Positions 1 through 35,707 of a stretch of DNA of 64,000 nt are shown one piece after another. This stretch comes from Bacteroidia bacterium (GTDB lineage Bacteria; Bacteroidota; Bacteroidia; J057), in NCBI GenBank assembly GCA_019695295.1, contig JAIBAH010000001.1, positions 1-64,000 of the forward strand. The letters run 5' to 3'. Positions within the stretch are counted from its first letter, which is position 1. Every line of letters begins with the position of its first letter. The notes beneath the pieces were generated by a model that saw only the letters and a program-made list of their open reading frames with translations, had not been told where the DNA came from and searched no databases. The translations under genes were made by a program, and so were the position numbers.

Positions 1-631
1 TAATATGAGTATAAATTTCAGTGGTTTTGATGGAGGAATGCCCCAAAAGCTGCTGAATATGCGGCAAGGCAACTCCGGCTTCCAGGAGATGGGTAGCAAA
101 ACTATGCCGCAGGGTATGCAGGGTAGCTGTTGGGGTAATGCCCGATTTAATTTTGGCATCAGTAAAAATATTTTGCACACTCCGGTCAGAGTATTTTCCA
201 CCGTACATCCCTTCAAATAAAAAATCTTTGGGCTGATAAATCTTCAGATATTCCTGTAAAAGTTGCCATGCTTTTTCTGACAAAATACTTACCCGATCTT
301 TTTTTCCCTTTCCGCCTTTGATAAAAATCTCCATTCTATCCGGTAAAACGCTGTTTACCAGCAGATTGGTAAGCTCCCCTAAACGCAGCCCTGCGGAATA
401 GACCAAAATCATCATACACTTATGCTTAGGATTCTCTATTGCCTGAATCAGCCTTACAACCTCCTCCTGACTCAATACATTCGGCAACTTCTCCGGACAA
501 ATCGGGCGGGGCAGATAATACGTTTTACGCTCCTGACCCAAAACCTGTTCATAATAAAACTTAATCGCCCGCACCTTGTAAAGACGTTTCACGAAACGTC
601 TCACTGACCACTCAAAATTGTATTGACTGCT
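1..631 (-). pseudogene. Tyrosine recombinase (XerC/D-like integrase), 5'-truncated and cut by the window edge
   Basis: The minus strand encodes the catalytic domain of a tyrosine recombinase. Visible motifs are the first catalytic Arg region (SAGLRLGEL), the conserved Lys region (GKGKKDR), the box II HTLRHSFATHLLE, and LLGHSS with the H of the last motif. The nucleophile Tyr lies in EIYTHI at the left edge, and the extreme C-terminus is outside the window. Upstream, recognisable core-binding sequence starts only at about VRAIKFYYEQ. Before it the frame runs through a palindromic repeat (580-604) and then meets a stop at 632-634, so the N-terminal SAM-like core-binding domain is missing. A GTG at 602-604 could start a short protein, but a recombinase without its N-terminal domain would probably not be active. 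Family assignment is confident; the pseudogene status is inferred from the missing domain and in-frame stop. Confidence 0.8.
580..604. repeat. Short palindromic repeat inside the broken integrase
   Basis: A perfect 9-bp inverted repeat with a 2-nt centre, AGACGTTTC-AC-GAAACGTCT, occupies 582-601, with weaker symmetry outside it (GTAAAG and CTCAC). It sits exactly where integrase homology ends. Its form resembles the GTAGAGACGTTTC-type palindromes that recur in cyanobacterial and Bacteroidota genomes; that resemblance is from memory, not from a search. Confidence 0.65.
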
Positions 632-1066: not shown

Positions 1067-4000
1067 TTAATTCGATTTTACAAACTTTCCGAGGAAGGAT
1101 TGATTTTCGGTAGAAACCCGGATTAAATAGGTTCCTATGGCAATTTCATCCCCGAGAGAAATTTCCTGATTGATACGTCCATTTTCCGGTAAGGTCGATA
1201 TACTGTAAACTACCTGACCCATCATATTTACTACCTCGATCAGGGCTTGTTTCTCTGTAACGACACTGGCAGATACAGTAAATACCCCATGATTCGGATT
1301 AGGGTAGATGGCAATATGATTTTCGTTTACACCGTCTGTCCCGTAGGCTACTTCGTCAGGGTTATCAGTTGGATTCTGATAGCGGATACCTATAGCATTC
1401 CCTGTACAGCTTTGTACCAAAAAATGTTGGGACTCGTCTCCCAGCAAATTACCACACCCTAACGGGGTTACCCAGATTTCGTAGGTAAAATTGGCAATAA
1501 GCCCAAATCTTGTATAGGTTGTAGCATTAGTATAATAATTTACCAGAATACTGTTTGAAACAGGGTTTTTGATTTTCACAAAATATCCCACAGCTCCGGG
1601 CACAGAAGACCAGTTAGTCGTGATACTGCTGCAGGTAGCGGAGAAAGTCAATCCGGTAGGTGCCACAGGTCTGGGGTCCGTAACTGTTACGTACGCAGGA
1701 GCAGATGCAACCGAAAACTGATTATCACAATATCCGGCAACAAACACCTCATAGGTTGAACCAAAATTAGCAGGAATTACCGTATAGACTTTATCGGTAA
1801 GCGTAGTATAACTACTGGCTGTAGGTCCCAGAACAGGTGCTACCTGTCGGAAACTAATCGCATACTGGCTGTATAAAGCACCTGTTGACCAGTCTGCAAA
1901 TATTTTATTACAGTTTACAAAAGCGGTCAGTGTAGGTGCAACCCCGCAGGAAGGATTACCGGCAGTAATAAAATAAACCAAAGTTGTGGTTGCTCCATTT
2001 GCGTCCACAGCATAGGCAACGTAAGCAGTTGCAGGAAGCAGCCCGGTAATATCAGGTGTATTCCCAACAGAAGACAAACTGGACCAGGTAGAACCTGTGA
2101 TAATTCGCCTCCAGTATAAAGTATAAGGAGATGCACAGTTACTGATTAAGGTATGTGCAAGCGTACTATCTACCGGGTCGGGAGTAACAGCAAGCGTCAG
2201 AGGACCTACATGTACATTAATGGAAGAAGTTATATTACATCCCGGACCGGTCGAAGCGGTAATAAAATACGTACCGGATGCCGTAAGCGGTGCCGCAGGA
2301 ATTACCGGATTCTGCAAATTGCTGTTAAACCCGTTGGGCCCCGTCCACGAATAGGTACCTGAACCCGGACCCGATGCAGTTAAATTCAGATTTGCTCCCG
2401 TACACAACGGAGAATTTGCCCCAAGGGATAGAGTCCCTCCTGAAACAATCACCGTTTGTGTTTGATTGGAGGTATTCCCGTTGCCGTCGTTATAAGTCCA
2501 CGTTACGGAATAGGTACCGGGTAAATTATAGGTTAAAGTAGCGGTTGTTCCCGTTATCGTTCCCGCACAGTTATCGGTTGCAGTAGGAGGGGTAAGCGTT
2601 CCTCCACAAGGCAAATTCAGCGTCGGAAGCGTTCCTGTATTGGGAACAGGCGCTGTTACATCATTCACAATCACCGACTGAGTTGCGGTAGAAGTATTGC
2701 CATTCCCGTCATCAAAGGTCCAGATTACAGAATAAGTCCCCTGACTATTGTAAGTAAGCGGAGCAGTAGTAGTTCCTGTAACTGTCCCTGCACAATTATC
2801 AGTAGTCGTTGGAGGCGTTATAGTCCCCCCGCACTGAATATTTGCGGCAGCAAGCGTAGGAGTAACAGGGGCAGTGACATCATCCACAATCACCGACTGA
2901 GTAGCTGTAGTAGAATTTCCATTCCCGTCATTAAATGTCCACACAACAGAGTATGTACCCTGTGAGTTGTATGTAAGCGGAGAAGTGGTTGTTCCAGTAA
3001 TGGCTCCCGCACAATTGTCAGTAGTAGTAGGAGGAGAAAGTGTCAGAGAACATTGTCCGGTTGCAGCAGCAATTGAAGGAGAAACCGGAGCGGTATTATC
3101 TACTTTATTTACCGTAAAACTACAGGTTGCGGTTCTGTTACATGCATCCGTAGCGGTCAGGGTTACTGTAGTTGCGCCTGGACCTGTTACAGTAGAAGCA
3201 GGCAGGGGCGATTGAGCAACTGAAATTGGCGCAGGTCCGGTTGTAGTGGCAAGAGTGGTAAAATCTCCTAAAGTACTTCCGCAGCTTACATTCAGGTTTA
3301 AAGTTTGAGGAGCAGGACAGGTAATGGTAGGTGCTGAAGGGATATTAACCGTTACCGGAGTTCTTGGAGAAGGACAACCACTGCTGCCTGACCAGGATAT
3401 AATAATTTGTCCGTTTCCGGTCTGATATCCCTGAGTTGTGCTGCCGCCTGTAAGACCGGTAATATAGGAAGAACCTCCTCCTCCCCCACCGGCTGCGACT
3501 CCGCTCCCGCTACCTGCGCCACCGCCACCGCCGCCACCAAAGTAGCCACCACCGCCGCCGCCACCGGAAACATCATAGTTACCCGTAGCACCCGCTCCGC
3601 CAATACCGGATGCACCGGCCGAGCCTGAAACCCCTCCTCCATCTCCCGGCGCACCAGCACCGCCTGCGGTAGAGGTTCCACCAAACCCTCCGTTTATACC
3701 CGAACCCGGATAGGAGAATCCACAATTCCCTGCTGCTACTCCATTCACCCCCGTTAAGCCGCCTCCGGCTCCGCCACTTCCCCCGCATCCGCAAGGCTGA
3801 CACGTTCCGTTACAATAATCCCGACCGGCTCCACCACCTCCACCGGCCACTATGACGCGGTTAGTCAAAGCAGTTCCGCCCGCCCGGATATCCGAAGCGC
3901 CTCCGCCCCCTCCGGCGTATCCCCCGGAACAGGAACTCCCCGCATTGGACAGGCCTCCATTACCCCCTCCGTTAAACCCACCGGTTCCACTCGTATTGCC

Positions 4001-6247
4001 TTGTCCGCCAACATAAATATTCAGCACCTGACCCGGAGTAACTGTAAGTGTCCCCTGAGCCCTGCCACCCAGTCCGCCATTGGCGTTGGTAATAAGACGG
4101 TCAAGGGCATTGGCTCCCTGAGCACCCCGTGCATCGATTGTAATGGCCGTTACCCCCGTTGGAACCGTAAAGGTCTGAACACTGCCTGTATAATTAAATG
4201 TCTGAGAGCCCGGTGCAGGACCTCCGCCCGGAAACATTGCTTCTGCATAATAAGTAGTCGTGCCTGAAGGGGTTACTGCAAAGTTCGCCCCGCTTACACT
4301 TGCCCCTAATGAAGTCCCCCCCGTAGGTACTGTGTACCAGTTGATGGAAGTACCTGTGGTAGTCGCATTCAACTGTACCGTTGCCCCGTTACAAAATGTA
4401 GAGGGAGTAGCGGTAACCGGATTCGGGGAAGGCGGGAGAGTGAGAGTAACCGTTACCGGAACCCTGCTTGCTGAAACCAACCCATTACAGGACGATAATA
4501 CCTGAGCATAATAGGTAGTGGTTCCCGTAGGAGAAACCGCAAAATTTGCACCGCTCAGAGAAGTACCGATACTGGCTCCTCCTGTGGGAACTGTGTACCA
4601 TTGAATGGTATTCCCGGAAGAAATCGCCGAAAGATTTACCGTAGCCCCGGAACAACTGATGGTTGAGGGAGTTGCCGTAACCAGAGTAGCAGGGGAAGGA
4701 ACCGTTGCGTCAAGCGTAACCGTTACCGGAGTTCTTGCCGAAGGACAACCACTGCTGCCTGACCATGATATAATAATTTGTCCGTTTCCGGTCTGATATC
4801 CCTGAGTAGTACTGCCGCCTGTAAGACCGGTGATGTAAGAAGAGCCTCCTCCTCCCCCACCGGCTGCGACTCCGCTCCCACTGCTTGCGCCACCGCCGCC
4901 GCCGCCGCCAAAGTAGCCACCACCGCCGCCGCCGCCGGAAACGTCATAGTCACCTGTAGCACCCGCTCCGCCTATACCTGACGCACCGGCCGAGCCTGAA
5001 ACCCCTCCTCCATCTCCCGGCGCACCAGCACCGCCTGCGGTAGAGGTTCCACCAAACCCTCCGTTTATACCCGAACCCGGATAGGAGAATCCACAATTCC
5101 CTGCTGCTACTCCATTCACCCCCGTTAAGCCGCCTCCGGCTCCGCCACTTCCCCCGCATCCGCAAGGCTGACACGTTCCGTTACAATAATCCCGACCGGC
5201 TCCACCACCTCCACCGGCCACTATGACGCGGTTAGTCAAAGCAGTTCCGCCCGCCCGGATATCCGAAGCGCCTCCGCCCCCTCCGGCGTATCCCCCGGAA
5301 CAGGAACTCCCCGCATTGGACAGGCCTCCATTACCCCCTCCGTTAAACCCACCGGTTCCACTCGTATTGCCTTGTCCGCCAACATAAATATTCAGCACCT
5401 GACCCGGAGTAACTGTAAGTGTCCCCTGAGCCCTGCCACCCAGTCCGCCATTGGCGTTGGTAATAAGACGGTCAAGGGCATTGGCTCCCTGAGCACCCCG
5501 TGCATCGATTGTAATGGCCGTTACCCCCGTTGGAACCGTAAAGGTCTGAACACTGCCTGTATAATTAAATGTCTGAGAGCCCGGTGCAGGACCTCCGCCC
5601 GGAAACATTGCTTCTGCATAATAAGTAGTCGTGCCTGAAGGGGTTACTGCAAAGTTCGCCCCGCTTACACTTGCCCCTAATGAAGTCCCCCCCGTAGGTA
5701 CTGTGTACCAGTTGATGGAAGTACCTGTGGTAGTCGCATTCAACTGTACCGTTGCCCCGTTACAAAATGTAGAGGGAGTAGCGGTAACCGGATTCGGGGA
5801 AGGGAAAACCAAAGGGGTATTGGAGATATTTGCAGAAAAACCTAAATCATTTACAGTCGCATTTGAGCTAAAATGCACGGTCAGAGACCCGGTAAGCGAG
5901 GTTACCGTAGTTAAAGCAGGGGTTCCTGATACGGGTCCATACAGTATCGTACCACCCAGACCGGCTCCATCATAAATCGTCAGAAAATCTGCACCGCTTT
6001 CCGTCGAAAAAACCGTAAATGTAAGACTTACGGCATTACAACTCACAGTGGGATTGATAATCGTGTATCCATTGGAATTCTGCGCATAACTGGATGTACC
6101 TCCGTTATCACAAATAGAGCCGGAATTTGCGGCAATTGTATTATTTCCGCTTACCGGCACTGAATTAGTGCACTGAGCAAACACCGAACCTTGAAAACCT
6201 GAGACAAAAAACAACAAGAAAAGCAAATTGGTAATTTTTTTTTTCAT
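1067..6247 (-). CDS. Giant glycine-rich, HYR/Ig-repeat secreted protein with T9SS type A sorting domain
   Basis: This 1726-residue protein is predicted to be exported and surface-attached. Residues 1-25 form a signal peptide ending in VFAQ. Next comes a CUB-like domain (about 26-145) with paired cysteines. An Ig-like segment and a long glycine-rich domain (GGGGGG runs, of the ALK/LTK glycine-rich type) follow, and the whole block appears twice, at about 149-509 and 606-966, with an Ig-like domain between. Four HYR-like repeats with the recurring TDNCAG signature span about 970-1270. An Ig-like domain and fibronectin-like segments come next. The last ~80 residues (YPNPNHGVFTV... GTYLIRVST) form a T9SS type A sorting domain. 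There are no catalytic motifs; an adhesin or matrix role is inferred. It is preceded by a strong promoter and followed by its own terminator, so it is probably monocistronic. Confidence 0.9.
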   Translation of the reverse strand: MKKKITNLLFLLFFVSGFQGSVFAQCTNSVPVSGNNTIAANSGSICDNGGTSSYAQNSNGYTIINPTVSCNAVSLTFTVFSTESGADFLTIYDGAGLGGTILYGPVSGTPALTTVTSLTGSLTVHFSSNATVNDLGFSANISNTPLVFPSPNPVTATPSTFCNGATVQLNATTTGTSINWYTVPTGGTSLGASVSGANFAVTPSGTTTYYAEAMFPGGGPAPGSQTFNYTGSVQTFTVPTGVTAITIDARGAQGANALDRLITNANGGLGGRAQGTLTVTPGQVLNIYVGGQGNTSGTGGFNGGGNGGLSNAGSSCSGGYAGGGGGASDIRAGGTALTNRVIVAGGGGGAGRDYCNGTCQPCGCGGSGGAGGGLTGVNGVAAGNCGFSYPGSGINGGFGGTSTAGGAGAPGDGGGVSGSAGASGIGGAGATGDYDVSGGGGGGGYFGGGGGGGASSGSGVAAGGGGGGSSYITGLTGGSTTQGYQTGNGQIIISWSGSSGCPSARTPVTVTLDATVPSPATLVTATPSTISCSGATVNLSAISSGNTIQWYTVPTGGASIGTSLSGANFAVSPTGTTTYYAQVLSSCNGLVSASRVPVTVTLTLPPSPNPVTATPSTFCNGATVQLNATTTGTSINWYTVPTGGTSLGASVSGANFAVTPSGTTTYYAEAMFPGGGPAPGSQTFNYTGSVQTFTVPTGVTAITIDARGAQGANALDRLITNANGGLGGRAQGTLTVTPGQVLNIYVGGQGNTSGTGGFNGGGNGGLSNAGSSCSGGYAGGGGGASDIRAGGTALTNRVIVAGGGGGAGRDYCNGTCQPCGCGGSGGAGGGLTGVNGVAAGNCGFSYPGSGINGGFGGTSTAGGAGAPGDGGGVSGSAGASGIGGAGATGNYDVSGGGGGGGYFGGGGGGGAGSGSGVAAGGGGGGSSYITGLTGGSTTQGYQTGNGQIIISWSGSSGCPSPRTPVTVNIPSAPTITCPAPQTLNLNVSCGSTLGDFTTLATTTGPAPISVAQSPLPASTVTGPGATTVTLTATDACNRTATCSFTVNKVDNTAPVSPSIAAATGQCSLTLSPPTTTDNCAGAITGTTTSPLTYNSQGTYSVVWTFNDGNGNSTTATQSVIVDDVTAPVTPTLAAANIQCGGTITPPTTTDNCAGTVTGTTTAPLTYNSQGTYSVIWTFDDGNGNTSTATQSVIVNDVTAPVPNTGTLPTLNLPCGGTLTPPTATDNCAGTITGTTATLTYNLPGTYSVTWTYNDGNGNTSNQTQTVIVSGGTLSLGANSPLCTGANLNLTASGPGSGTYSWTGPNGFNSNLQNPVIPAAPLTASGTYFITASTGPGCNITSSINVHVGPLTLAVTPDPVDSTLAHTLISNCASPYTLYWRRIITGSTWSSLSSVGNTPDITGLLPATAYVAYAVDANGATTTLVYFITAGNPSCGVAPTLTAFVNCNKIFADWSTGALYSQYAISFRQVAPVLGPTASSYTTLTDKVYTVIPANFGSTYEVFVAGYCDNQFSVASAPAYVTVTDPRPVAPTGLTFSATCSSITTNWSSVPGAVGYFVKIKNPVSNSILVNYYTNATTYTRFGLIANFTYEIWVTPLGCGNLLGDESQHFLVQSCTGNAIGIRYQNPTDNPDEVAYGTDGVNENHIAIYPNPNHGVFTVSASVVTEKQALIEVVNMMGQVVYSISTLPENGRINQEISLGDEIAIGTYLIRVSTENQSFLGKFVKSN
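3351..4432 (-). repeat. Intragenic direct repeat, downstream copy (1082 bp)
   Basis: This copy matches 4722-5803 at a constant offset of 1371 bp (457 codons). Positions 3612-4432 show no difference from 4983-5803 when read base by base. The remaining 261 bp differ at about 21 sites, mostly silent. Confidence 0.95.
4722..5803 (-). repeat. Intragenic direct repeat, upstream copy (1082 bp)
   Basis: Partner of 3351-4432. It encodes an Ig-like segment plus the glycine-rich domain at residues about 149-509 of the cargo protein. The identity is much higher over the N-terminal 821 bp than over the rest. Confidence 0.95.
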
Positions 6248-7695: not shown

Positions 7696-10485
7696 TTAGC
7701 GGATAATCGTCACTGAGCCTTTATTCATTTTCTTCACTCCTTTGGACGTAGTATATTCCACCAGACAGATATAAACTCCTTCAGGACAAGGCTCTCCTTT
7801 TCTTACATCAAGGCCATTCCATTTGTCTGTTACATTACTGGATTCATACACAACTTTCCCCCATCTGTCATAGATAACCATATGATATGATTGTAAATTG
7901 TAGCTTCCCATTACAAAAAACTCATCATTTACCCTATCATAATTGGGCGAAAAAGCAGAAGGAATCCATACATCGCGGATATCATATACAAAAACATTTT
8001 TGGTAACCGTATCTTTACAACCCGATGCATTCGTTGCAATCAGTGTAACCGGAGCATAACCTTCACCCGGGAATGAGAAGAAAGGAGCCGCATTGGTAGA
8101 GTAATTTCCATCTCCAAACTGCCAAAGCAACGTAAGCCCCAAAGTAACAGGGTTGCCCGGACTTGTATAGGACGAGTCATTAAAATAAACGGTTTGGTTT
8201 ACCTCAACGGTATCTCTTTCAAAATAAAAGTTGGCAACCGGACTTGGGTTGAGGGTAATATTTACCGTTTCCTCGCTTTCACCCGGACAGTTTGCAAGAT
8301 AAGATACACTTCTTACGATATAGGTATGAGGGGCAATCACATCATTTACAGTATAACTTGTTCCCTCATTGATTAAATCACCGCTTAAATCATACCACTC
8401 AAAATGTGCGATGTCTGTGGAGGGTGAGGTAATCTGCAATACTGCGTCTGTCCATTTACATACTGCAACATCCTTTACCACAGGCGTTGGAGGAATATAA
8501 TCCACCAATAATTGCACCTCGGAACGCTGATAGGAAGCACACCCATTCAATACGCTTTGCACATAATACACAGAGCTCGAAGTAGCACTTATACTATAAT
8601 TCGGGCCGGTATGAATCGGCAGGGTAGCGACAAGATCCGTGTACCATTTAAAAGTACAACCTGCAGGACCCGAAACAGATAATACCGCAGTCTGACCCGG
8701 ACAGATTGTATCGGGAATCGTAACTGCTGTATCCGGGCGTGGGTTTACCTGTACATTCACAACAGCATCAGGCCCGGTACAGCCAATTGCAGTGGAAGCA
8801 TTTACATAAAATATGATATTCTGAGACAAAGCCGGGGTAATATACACATTTCCGGTAGCCAGCGGATTGGGAGAATTGGGGTTACTATACCAGTTAATGG
8901 TAGTGCCCGGAATAGGCTGAGCAGTCAAAGTAGCCTGCTCACCGGTACAAACGGTAACGTCAGGTACGGTAGGAGCCACAGGAATCTGATCTACATTCAG
9001 GAAAACAGGGGTTCTTAAAATACTGGTACACCCGTTGGCATCCGTAGCAGAAACATACAGAGTAGTATCGCCCGATACAGGACCAATATTAGGACTCGTT
9101 CCGGTAAAAACCGGTAAGCCGCCGGAAGCAGAAGTGTACCATATAAAGGTTACTCCCGGAGGAGCGGTTGCTACAAATACCCCATCCTCACCCGCACAAA
9201 CAGGAGCAGCGGAAGCGGTGGGAGAAGCCGGTGCAACATTCACCAGAACCGTAAATGAGCCTCGGGTACTGGACGTACATGCCCCATTATTTACTGATTC
9301 AACATAATAGGTCGTGGTAACCGAAAGAGGAGGAGTAGTAAAGGTCGTTCCTGTTGTAATGGGAACTCCTCCTGTTGCCACATCATACCATGAAAGCACC
9401 TCATTACCTTGTGGCACAACCTGAAGGGTTGCGGATTCTCCTTCACAAATCGCATTGGAAGGCCCTGAGATAACCGGAACTGCCGGATAAGGAATTGCCC
9501 AGACCGAAACAGTATCCATTACATTACAGGTTCCGATGGTAGCGGTAGTAATATAATCAAATGTATCGGCAAGCGTTCCATTATTCACGATAGTCAGAAC
9601 AGGATTCGAAATGGTATCAAAACTCAGTCCACTGCCCGGAGTCCAGGAATACGTATAATAAGGCAGTGAAGGTGAACCCAGATTGACGAGACTACCCTCA
9701 CATCCGGACTGAGTGACACCTGCGTTTACTGTAGGGATTGGTACAAAGATATTTGCATTTTTGAGTGAATACAAAGCGTCTCCTCCTCCTCCGTTAGCAG
9801 CGGTAAATCCGAAAAATGCAGGGAAATTCAGCTGATAAAAACCACTTAACGTAGGATTCACTGAACCATTAAAATAAACATCTATGTTTCCGTTATTGTA
9901 AACGACTCTGATATTGTTGTAATTATCACTAAAAATCCCGGGAAGAGTGATTGTTGGGCCGGGACTGCATTCATCCGTTCCGTTATAGCGAATCTCAAGC
10001 TGAGGAGAAGTACCCGGACAGTTATTAAATCCATCAAAGCAAACGGAAAATCCGGTAATTCCTCCGGGAGGCAATCCTAAAGCTCCTCCACTAAAATTAG
10101 GAGTACTCCCAGGAATTGCAGAGGTCACAATAAAAGCCATCCCCTCAGGAGCTCCGTCAAACATTCTTATATCAAAATCTGCAATCCAGAAATTGCAATT
10201 GGCGGATAAATCCATAAAGCCATTAAAAAAAATCCCGCCCGCCGTTAGGTTTTGCTGAGGAGATAAGATTAATTCATTTGGGAAAAAATCCGGATCCCCG
10301 TTAGTATCCATCAGGTTAGGCACTCCGCCCCCGGCATCTGCAGAACCCAGCAAAGTCCACCCCGCTGTATTCATTGTAGGGCCATTCCCGTTCAGAGAAG
10401 CAAAAAGTGCCGTTTGCGCTTTTGATTCCAAAAACCCTGATAAAATCATTAAAACAAGTAAACTTTTCAATAAATTACACTTCAT
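7696..10485 (-). CDS. Lectin-like, Ig/PKD-repeat secreted protein with gliding-motility-type (T9SS type B) C-terminus
   Basis: The 929-residue protein starts with a signal peptide (residues 1-23, ending SKAQ). Residues about 25-255 resemble an L-type lectin / concanavalin-like fold (FWIADFDIRMFDG, GMAFIVTS). Several Ig-like repeats with the NWYSNP / SWYDVATGG type of tryptophan-tyrosine signature follow (about 260-740). A PKD domain with WQFGDG is at about 745-835. The final ~90 residues (PSAFSPNYDRVNDEF, YDRWGKVVYES, WNG) match the gliding motility-associated C-terminal domain used as a type B T9SS sorting signal. It is predicted to be secreted and to bind carbohydrate at the surface; that binding is inferred from the fold. 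It converges on hemW across a shared terminator. Confidence 0.88.
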   Translation of the reverse strand: MKCNLLKSLLVLMILSGFLESKAQTALFASLNGNGPTMNTAGWTLLGSADAGGGVPNLMDTNGDPDFFPNELILSPQQNLTAGGIFFNGFMDLSANCNFWIADFDIRMFDGAPEGMAFIVTSAIPGSTPNFSGGALGLPPGGITGFSVCFDGFNNCPGTSPQLEIRYNGTDECSPGPTITLPGIFSDNYNNIRVVYNNGNIDVYFNGSVNPTLSGFYQLNFPAFFGFTAANGGGGDALYSLKNANIFVPIPTVNAGVTQSGCEGSLVNLGSPSLPYYTYSWTPGSGLSFDTISNPVLTIVNNGTLADTFDYITTATIGTCNVMDTVSVWAIPYPAVPVISGPSNAICEGESATLQVVPQGNEVLSWYDVATGGVPITTGTTFTTPPLSVTTTYYVESVNNGACTSSTRGSFTVLVNVAPASPTASAAPVCAGEDGVFVATAPPGVTFIWYTSASGGLPVFTGTSPNIGPVSGDTTLYVSATDANGCTSILRTPVFLNVDQIPVAPTVPDVTVCTGEQATLTAQPIPGTTINWYSNPNSPNPLATGNVYITPALSQNIIFYVNASTAIGCTGPDAVVNVQVNPRPDTAVTIPDTICPGQTAVLSVSGPAGCTFKWYTDLVATLPIHTGPNYSISATSSSVYYVQSVLNGCASYQRSEVQLLVDYIPPTPVVKDVAVCKWTDAVLQITSPSTDIAHFEWYDLSGDLINEGTSYTVNDVIAPHTYIVRSVSYLANCPGESEETVNITLNPSPVANFYFERDTVEVNQTVYFNDSSYTSPGNPVTLGLTLLWQFGDGNYSTNAAPFFSFPGEGYAPVTLIATNASGCKDTVTKNVFVYDIRDVWIPSAFSPNYDRVNDEFFVMGSYNLQSYHMVIYDRWGKVVYESSNVTDKWNGLDVRKGEPCPEGVYICLVEYTTSKGVKKMNKGSVTIIR

Positions 10486-34950: not shown

Positions 34951-35023
34951 TTTCACTAAAATGAATATCAGTGTCAGGATTTTCTTGAATGTGTGTAAAT
35001 TTGATTATCAAATTATAGAATTT
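34951..35023. repeat. 73-bp direct repeat, copy 1 (upstream control region)
   Basis: These 73 bases are identical to 35775-35847, an offset of 824 bp. The copy lies just upstream of the -7 box of the LPP20-like gene and contains a 17-bp palindrome. Confidence 0.95.
34998..35014. promoter_or_regulatory. Operator-like palindrome, copy 1
   Basis: AATTTGAT-T-ATCAAATT is a perfect 8-1-8 palindrome. The left end is 67 nt from the -7 box end at 34931. The same spacing occurs in copy 2. It looks like a binding site for a dimeric regulator, which is unknown. Confidence 0.5.
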
Positions 35024-35062: not shown

Positions 35063-35707
35063 TCAATTTCCTCCAGTAATATGAAATGATATACCCTCTA
35101 TAGTAAAACAAGTACTGCCTGAAGACAATTTTCCACCTCTCCCGTAAATATCATTATTGCTAAAATAGTCAAATGAAGAGTTACCTATACTTTTCAGTTT
35201 CTTACCTCTTCCATAGATATCATTGCTACTATAATAATCAAAGGAAACATTTCCTACTTGTTTTACTTTACCGCCTCTTTCATATATATCATTATTGCTA
35301 AAATAGTCGAATGAAGAGTTACCGATACTTTTCAGTTTCATACCTCTTCCATAAATATCATTATTACTATAATAATCAAAGGAAACATTTCCCACTTGTT
35401 TTACTTTACCGCCTCTTTCATAAATATCATTATTGCTAAAATAGTCGAATGAAACATTACCTACCCTCTGCGTTTTCCCACCTCTTCCATAAACATCATT
35501 GTTGCTGTAATAATCTCGGCTTCCACCCATACCAATATCAATGATTTCACCCATAGAATTGATTCTTACAAATGCCGAACTGCCAACATCAATTGTTGTT
35601 TCAAAATTACCATAAATATCTATCTCCATTTTTTTTACTTGTGCAAAAAGAGAAACAGAACCTAAGGTACAGAACAAAAATGTCACCATAAACAATAATT
35701 GTTTCAT
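35063..35707 (-). CDS. Exported protein made of 23-residue repeats
   Basis: The 214-residue protein begins MKQLLFMVTFLFCTLGSVSLFAQ (signal peptide, almost the same as the neighbour's). Residues about 58-195 are six tandem 23-residue units with the core FDYFSNNDIY-(E/G)RGGK-(V/L)K, from YSNNDVYGRG to FSNNDIYGRG. Units alternate between a QVGNVSFDYY form and a SIGNSSFDYF form, giving a 46-residue pair period. The repeats carry many D, N, Y and G residues and resemble the 'IG.v.I.YD..G' repeats seen in other Bacteroidota proteins. They are probably short beta-strands that stack. The C-terminus TCFTIEGISFHITGGN is not repetitive. No function is known; it looks like an exported structural or binding protein. 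Confidence 0.8.
   Translation of the reverse strand: MKQLLFMVTFLFCTLGSVSLFAQVKKMEIDIYGNFETTIDVGSSAFVRINSMGEIIDIGMGGSRDYYSNNDVYGRGGKTQRVGNVSFDYFSNNDIYERGGKVKQVGNVSFDYYSNNDIYGRGMKLKSIGNSSFDYFSNNDIYERGGKVKQVGNVSFDYYSSNDIYGRGKKLKSIGNSSFDYFSNNDIYGRGGKLSSGSTCFTIEGISFHITGGN
35152..35520 (-). repeat. Six 69-bp tandem repeats within the gene
   Basis: Starts of the shared CATTATTGCT-like core lie at 35152, 35221, 35290, 35359, 35428 and 35497, exactly 69 bp apart. Alternating versions make 138-bp higher-order units. The periodicity is a multiple of three, so it does not shift the frame. Confidence 0.95.

Follow-up and report, generated by a model that had tools for sequence, protein, structure and literature searches.

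A gene for a predicted T9SS type A surface protein bears a real footprint of recombination in the window, i.e. the whole stretch of 64,000 nucleotides that was analysed. It contains two copies of one protein module that share an identical tract next to a diverged tail. The best reading of this mosaic, to which we assign a probability of roughly 0.7, is an older duplication of the module, followed by a recent gene conversion or an equivalent unequal exchange over about 821 bp. This reading is based on one assembly from one strain.

A modular surface-protein gene with a duplicated unit

The gene shows a modular structure. According to Pfam and NCBIfam, the encoded protein consists of a CUB domain, Ig_7(GRD), Ig_7, Ig_7(GRD), HYR-like repeats, and a C-terminal sorting domain, where Ig_7(GRD) denotes an Ig_7 domain with a glycine-rich domain inserted near its end. 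In the coding direction, the coordinates give the order CUB, module A1 (5803-4722), plain Ig_7 (4721-4433), module A2 (4432-3351), HYR-like repeats, and C-terminal domain. The features are as follows (window positions, with the basis of each in brackets):

1067..6247, minus strand: predicted T9SS type A surface-protein gene, 1726 aa (ORF list and Pfam/NCBIfam)
5828..6136, minus strand: CUB domain, aa 38-140 (Pfam PF00431, E 1.1e-5)
4722..5803, minus strand: copy A1, Ig_7 with nested ALK_LTK-type glycine-rich domain (GRD) (pair alignment and Pfam)
4983..5803, minus strand: identical 821-bp tract of A1, the 5' part of the module in the coding direction (alignment)
4796..5509, minus strand: glycine-rich domain (PF12810) of A1 (59.2 bits, above cut-off)
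4722..4982, minus strand: diverged 261-bp tail of A1 (alignment, NG86)
4433..4721, minus strand: spacer, a plain Ig_7 without insert, single copy (Pfam match and sequence)
3351..4432, minus strand: copy A2, Ig_7 with nested ALK_LTK-type glycine-rich domain (pair alignment and Pfam)
3612..4432, minus strand: identical 821-bp tract of A2 (alignment)
3425..4138, minus strand: glycine-rich domain (PF12810) of A2 (59.2 bits, above cut-off)
3351..3611, minus strand: diverged 261-bp tail of A2, with 21 differences from A1, 18 of them synonymous (alignment, NG86)
2645..3072, minus strand: 219-bp tandem repeats in the HYR-like domain region (repeat finding and Pfam)
1082..1309, minus strand: Por_Secre_tail / TIGR04183 T9SS type A sorting domain, aa 1647-1722 (Pfam, NCBIfam)
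3346..3359, plus strand: 14-bp word TAACCGTTACCGGA at the 3' (coding) end of module A2 (word search)
4447..4460, plus strand: 14-bp word TAACCGTTACCGGA at the end of the plain Ig_7 spacer (word search)
4717..4730, plus strand: 14-bp word TAACCGTTACCGGA at the end of module A1 (word search)

The sorting domain at the C-terminus reaches 41.9 bits with TIGR04183 (cut-off 23) and 38.6 bits with PF18962 (cut-off 27), and the N-terminus is hydrophobic, as judged by eye. A second T9SS gene, of type B and also harboring Ig_7 domains (Pfam, NCBIfam), is located nearby (7696-10485). The contig itself begins within an ORF (window 2-604) that resembles, by eye, a tyrosine recombinase. Further repeats are found elsewhere in the window: an ORF of 214 aa at 35063-35707 consists of 69-bp repeats resembling YYSNNDIYGRGGK (TRF score 588, 138-bp period), and a 73-bp exact direct repeat at 34951-35023 has its second copy 824 bp on. 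These 73-bp repeats lie directly upstream of the likely starts (by eye) of two adjoining minus-strand ORFs.

The nesting of the two domains is apparent from the profile matches. The Ig_7 (PF19081) part before the insert scores 44.1 bits (profile positions 3-64), and joined to the residues behind the insert it scores 63.1 bits (3-81); the same joining across the insert raises the score of the Flavobacteriales protein L029 from 52.6 to 68.8 bits. PF12810 (ALK_LTK_GRD) matches the protein in two stretches with 92.3 bits in total (gathering threshold 24.5) and a single module with 36.5 bits, and a profile made from 12 such glycine-rich domains finds chains of human ALK in the PDB (best E 2.8e-7). 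All 21 fold-search matches obtained at E <= 0.001 with an AlphaFold2 model (mean pLDDT 68.9) are ALK/LTK, with TM-scores of about 0.2-0.4; because these scores are low and the pLDDT is modest, the fold assignment leans on the sequence more than on the model. The likeness to the glycine-rich domain of ALK/LTK (PF12810; PDB 7nwz, 7n00, 7lrz) is one of profile and fold-search matches, whereas the domain in the window is bacterial, nested inside an Ig_7, and not part of a kinase receptor.

Proteins, alignments, and Pfam matches place nested glycine-rich domains in L027, L029, L031, two further contigs of the own genome (C13 and C126), and contig C388 of the family genome G002, and free ones near the protein start in L023, L024, L026, and L028. 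In a tree of 16 glycine-rich domains, a single nested clade is not rejected (p-AU 0.34). Two free glycine-rich domains sit in records of other phyla, namely L028:1223-2098 (record named Gammaproteobacteria), 60% identical to that of the window, and L032:5040-5900 (record named Eremiobacteria), 48% identical; transfer and misbinning are both possible causes. A literature search returned no paper joining three of the subjects domain insertion, immunoglobulin-like, glycine-rich domain, and Bacteroidetes. It is somewhat unusual for an ALK-type glycine-rich domain to be nested in an Ig_7 of a bacterium and to be duplicated together with it.

A step in divergence and the reliability of the assembly

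The two modules (3351-4432 and 4722-5803, offset 1371) form an ungapped alignment of 1082 bp. It contains 21 differences, all of which fall within 3351-3611 (the first at 3367, 3368, and 3395, the last at 3611), with none in 3612-4432. The original prediction, which had described 821 identical bp (3612-4432 = 4983-5803) next to 261 bp differing at about 21 mostly silent sites, is borne out at the same coordinates by this ungapped comparison; the differences number exactly 21, and NG86 counts 18 as synonymous. Beyond the duplicated block the match ends immediately, save for a few bases at 3346-3350. One end of the tract coincides with the exact start of homology (5803/4432), and the other is an abrupt edge at 4983/3612.

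The first 273 codons, forming the tract, show no synonymous change at 227.3 sites, vs 18 at 72.3 sites (dS 0.30) in the last 87 codons, forming the tail (NG86; Fisher p = 1e-12). Only three amino-acid differences, all in the tail, separate the modules, which are identical at 357 of 360 residues. Random scatter over the 1082 bp would put all 21 differences into the 261-bp part with a probability of 1e-13, and the longest clean run among 20,000 random placements was 547, so that 821 was reached in none. The spacing of the differences along the tail does not deviate from an even one (KS p = 0.41; 4, 8, and 9 per third). Most of them affect third codon positions, and many are C/T changes (GGC/GGT, TAC/TAT). 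A diversity-generating retroelement leaves differences restricted to adenines of its template; as the changes are not adenine-directed, such an element is rejected.

Genes of such repeat make-up are those in which short-read assemblies deserve least trust, and the original prediction had itself named an assembly collapse or expansion as an alternative. The assembler may have collapsed two tracts that differ moderately, or it may have guessed how often a loop is traversed, in which case the exact identity or the copy number would be unreal. The assembly of the own genome comprises 223 contigs, two of which (C13 and C184) overlap by exactly 127 bp, the end of the former being the start of the latter. 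An exact contig overlap of length k is the residue left by a de Bruijn graph, here of k=127, and on this one instance the assembly looks like the product of a short-read k=127 de Bruijn graph; at the start of the window's own contig no such overlap was seen. Contig C13 terminates inside a sister gene carrying the same kind of modules, and 6 of the 18 own-genome matches to the C-terminal module above 100 bits lie within 60 bp of a contig end. Since an exact repeat of 821 bp exceeds short-read length and is left unbridged in a graph of k=127, we infer both the repeat number and the innermost part of the tract.

How far merging can account for the identity was simulated with three bulge-length limits (SPAdes-like settings). 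With a limit of 381, a true divergence of 1% appears as identity in about 6% of cases and one of 0.5% in about 27%, but 3% interior divergence does so in at most 0.06% under any of the limits, and 8% was merged to identity in 0 of 20,000 simulations under each. Moreover, assuming k=127, the outermost 126 bp on either side of the tract are joined in the graph to a flank unique to each copy, and over the length of one k-mer from each flank the two copies do not differ; at the rate of the tail, zero change has a chance of 2.6e-5 in 126 bp and of 7e-10 in 252 bp. A path running through tract, tail, spacer, and tract also requires a real duplication in at least one genome. An assembly artefact behind the identity or the copy number is accordingly improbable. 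Of the alternative first raised, the simple merging of a pair diverged evenly by 8% falls away, even-rate divergence plus merging being rejected under the simulation model, whereas copy number and inner tract keep their inferential status: the identity stated for the 821 bp means no less than about 99%, and the stated two copies mean that some genome has two or more. Under these assumptions, the step in divergence between tract and tail is sound.

Origin of the mosaic

Selection on DNA or RNA, e.g. by an overlapping function or an RNA structure, could in principle keep the 821-bp part identical. It is contradicted by a paralogous module on contig C13 of the own genome, which shares 77% amino-acid identity with the window module and differs from both copies with a pS of 0.79 in the 821-bp part and of 0.65 in the 261-bp tail. 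Both parts are near or at silent saturation, and hence the tract could have diverged, and its identity is of recent origin. No support for selection at the DNA or RNA level on the tract was found, an overlapping ORF of 110 aa (3352-3684) lying mostly in the tail. On this comparison, silent constraint is rejected as the cause and is extremely improbable.

An identical tract thus adjoins diverged homologous sequence, with constraint not being the cause, and the test for conversion tracts that the original prediction had proposed gives the pattern expected of one (0/227 vs 18/72 synonymous sites). The proposed gene conversion after an older duplication holds in so far as homogenisation is the best-supported reading, given the step in rate and the exclusion of constraint; conversion proper is not separable from paired unequal crossovers, which would give the same pattern, and either fits.

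The following course of events is consistent with these observations. The Ig_7(GRD) module would have been duplicated long ago, with a plain Ig_7 between the copies, and silent divergence would have reached about 0.30 per site. Later, the two copies would have undergone homologous recombination, presumably of the RecA type, in which gene conversion or an unequal exchange equivalent to it overwrote about 821 bp of one copy. The overwritten part would extend from 5803/4432, where homology starts, to 4983/3612, and the last 261 bp would have kept their divergence. The same recombination could add or remove a stretch of 457 aa.

The reverse order of ages is conceivable: the whole pair may be a young duplication in which one 261-bp tail was replaced by a diverged third version, derived from another strain or from a lost third module. 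The data give a mosaic without a direction, and the attempt to polarise the tail changes by the C13 paralogue failed, this sequence being too saturated; of the 20 differing tail codons, it agrees with A1 in 5 and with A2 in 4. Tail replacement, which requires an additional unseen donor, is rather unlikely, and a closer version of the tail was found neither in the own genome nor in the genus (3 genomes). Homogenisation of the tract, as the preferred reading, has a counterweight of its own in L029 and L031, which harbor two nested modules each. Their units are 91-92% identical (amino acids) to the orthologous unit and 55-57% to the neighbouring one; to judge from these two, two-module proteins need not be homogenised, and this counts against the preferred reading.

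The ends of the modules offer candidate sites for such exchanges. The window contains three occurrences of the word TAACCGTTACCGGA, vs 0 expected (0 in shuffles), and among the 101 loci examined it is present in 8, all of them stretches of the same window region. Its presence in A1 and A2 is common by descent, and the occurrence at the spacer end is the informative part. The words also encode the conserved end of Ig_7, and they may have served as recombination joints. The spacings between module ends (1371, 1101, and 270 bp) are all divisible by 3, 1371 being 3 x 457, so an exchange between modules or between the words keeps the reading frame. In-frame variation in length between strains is possible for this gene, as far as its sequence suggests.

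Signs of recombination in the gene family and their meaning

The C-terminal 377 aa of the gene are widespread in the own genome. Among 13 genomes of the family, matches above 100 bits occur at 18 places in the own genome (G000) and at 5 in G002, and in the other 11 none above 40 bits is present among the matches listed. In G000, the module was found on contigs C36, C198, C35, C124, C85, C15, C10, C9, C88, C150, C126, C60, C204, C121, C25, C32, and C1, as well as at window 1070-2200. The shared module of about 377 aa appears to be a lineage-specific expansion of predicted T9SS proteins.

Signs of recombination are also present in other members of this family. A gene on contig C36 of the own genome (L101, reverse complement 5341-6042) carries three 234-bp tandem repeats, and its counterpart on contig C393 of G002 (L098:5627-6094) two, as assembled. 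Repeat identity amounts to 79-87% within the C36 gene, 96% within the G002 gene, and 67-70% between the species (flanks 63-66%); because identity between species is lower than within genes, the repeats were homogenised or multiplied after the species split. Through position 112, the middle C36 repeat agrees with repeat 1 at 16 of 21 informative sites, and from position 148 onwards it agrees with repeat 3 at 19 of 20, a split equalled in strength by none of 500 shuffles (48 sites, with 7 matching neither neighbour left out).

For the C-terminal module, a longest-run test covering 20 places (17 own, 3 in G002) out of the 23 that exceed 100 bits, with 186 of 190 pairs long enough, returned 5 of 186 pairs with an identical run unreached by 2000 shuffles, conservation being taken as even. 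As the test ignores uneven conservation, only the striking pairs C204/C25 (85 sites) and C204/C32 (71 of 74 sites), situated at contig ends, are relied on. Exact words of 107 bp (L093 1534-1640 / L094 1308-1414) and 116 bp (L093 1606-1721 / L095 27-142) are shared by paralogous genes at contig ends, and conversion between these genes is possible, judged by the words themselves.

Exact repeats of at least 127 bp were absent within the 18 other own-genome loci compared; such repeats would tend to break contigs, however, and would then go unseen. No close orthologue or close copy of the module pair was found in the genus (3 genomes). In G002, the ORFs listed beside the hemN-like neighbour gene (L099) include no such gene; in G001 (L100), those listed include one glycine-rich ORF (3-1229), and the module query gave no match in this genome. 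Among viral contigs, four stretches fit a pattern, none of which was confirmed.

In its widest form, the reading would have the genus remodel a large T9SS family by recombination, with shared C-terminal modules and end words allowing the copying, exchange, and homogenisation of Ig_7(GRD) cassettes and other repeats inside a gene as well as from gene to gene, identity being actively renewed and protein length varying in the population. We regard this extension as tentative and, on balance, doubtful.

Related systems have been described. The hagA, rgpA, and kgp genes of Porphyromonas gingivalis likewise encode T9SS-secreted surface proteins with repeated adhesin modules; the HagA, RgpA, and Kgp repeats are identical within and between genes, defeat short-read assembly, and differ between strains, and conversion has been proposed there for variable surface proteins (PMC5266723). 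The P. gingivalis proteins differ from the one in the window in that they harbor cleaved adhesin and DUF2436 domains and several repeats, and strain data exist for them. The repeat number of hagA was reportedly treated by Kozarov in 1998. In Periscope proteins, which are likewise located at the cell surface, repeat domains of more than 50 residues are highly identical, and homologous recombination is expected to change their number (PMC9704523). The gene in the window shares the highly identical repeats of more than 50 residues (357/360) in a predicted surface protein, yet in place of a strict tandem array it has two copies with a plain Ig_7 (4433-4721) between them. By analogy, it would work like the HagA-type and Periscope systems, but it is not classed as a Periscope protein, because its two copies are non-adjacent and the gene is known from one strain. 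A literature search for work linking type IX secretion to both tandem repeats and gene conversion found no paper.

That bacteria remodel surface proteins by repeat recombination is already known, and the building block is what is somewhat unusual here. The gene provides a clean recombination footprint from a little-sampled lineage of the Bacteroidota (3 genomes in the genus). If strains differ in the number of units, the pattern of P. gingivalis hagA would extend to another lineage.
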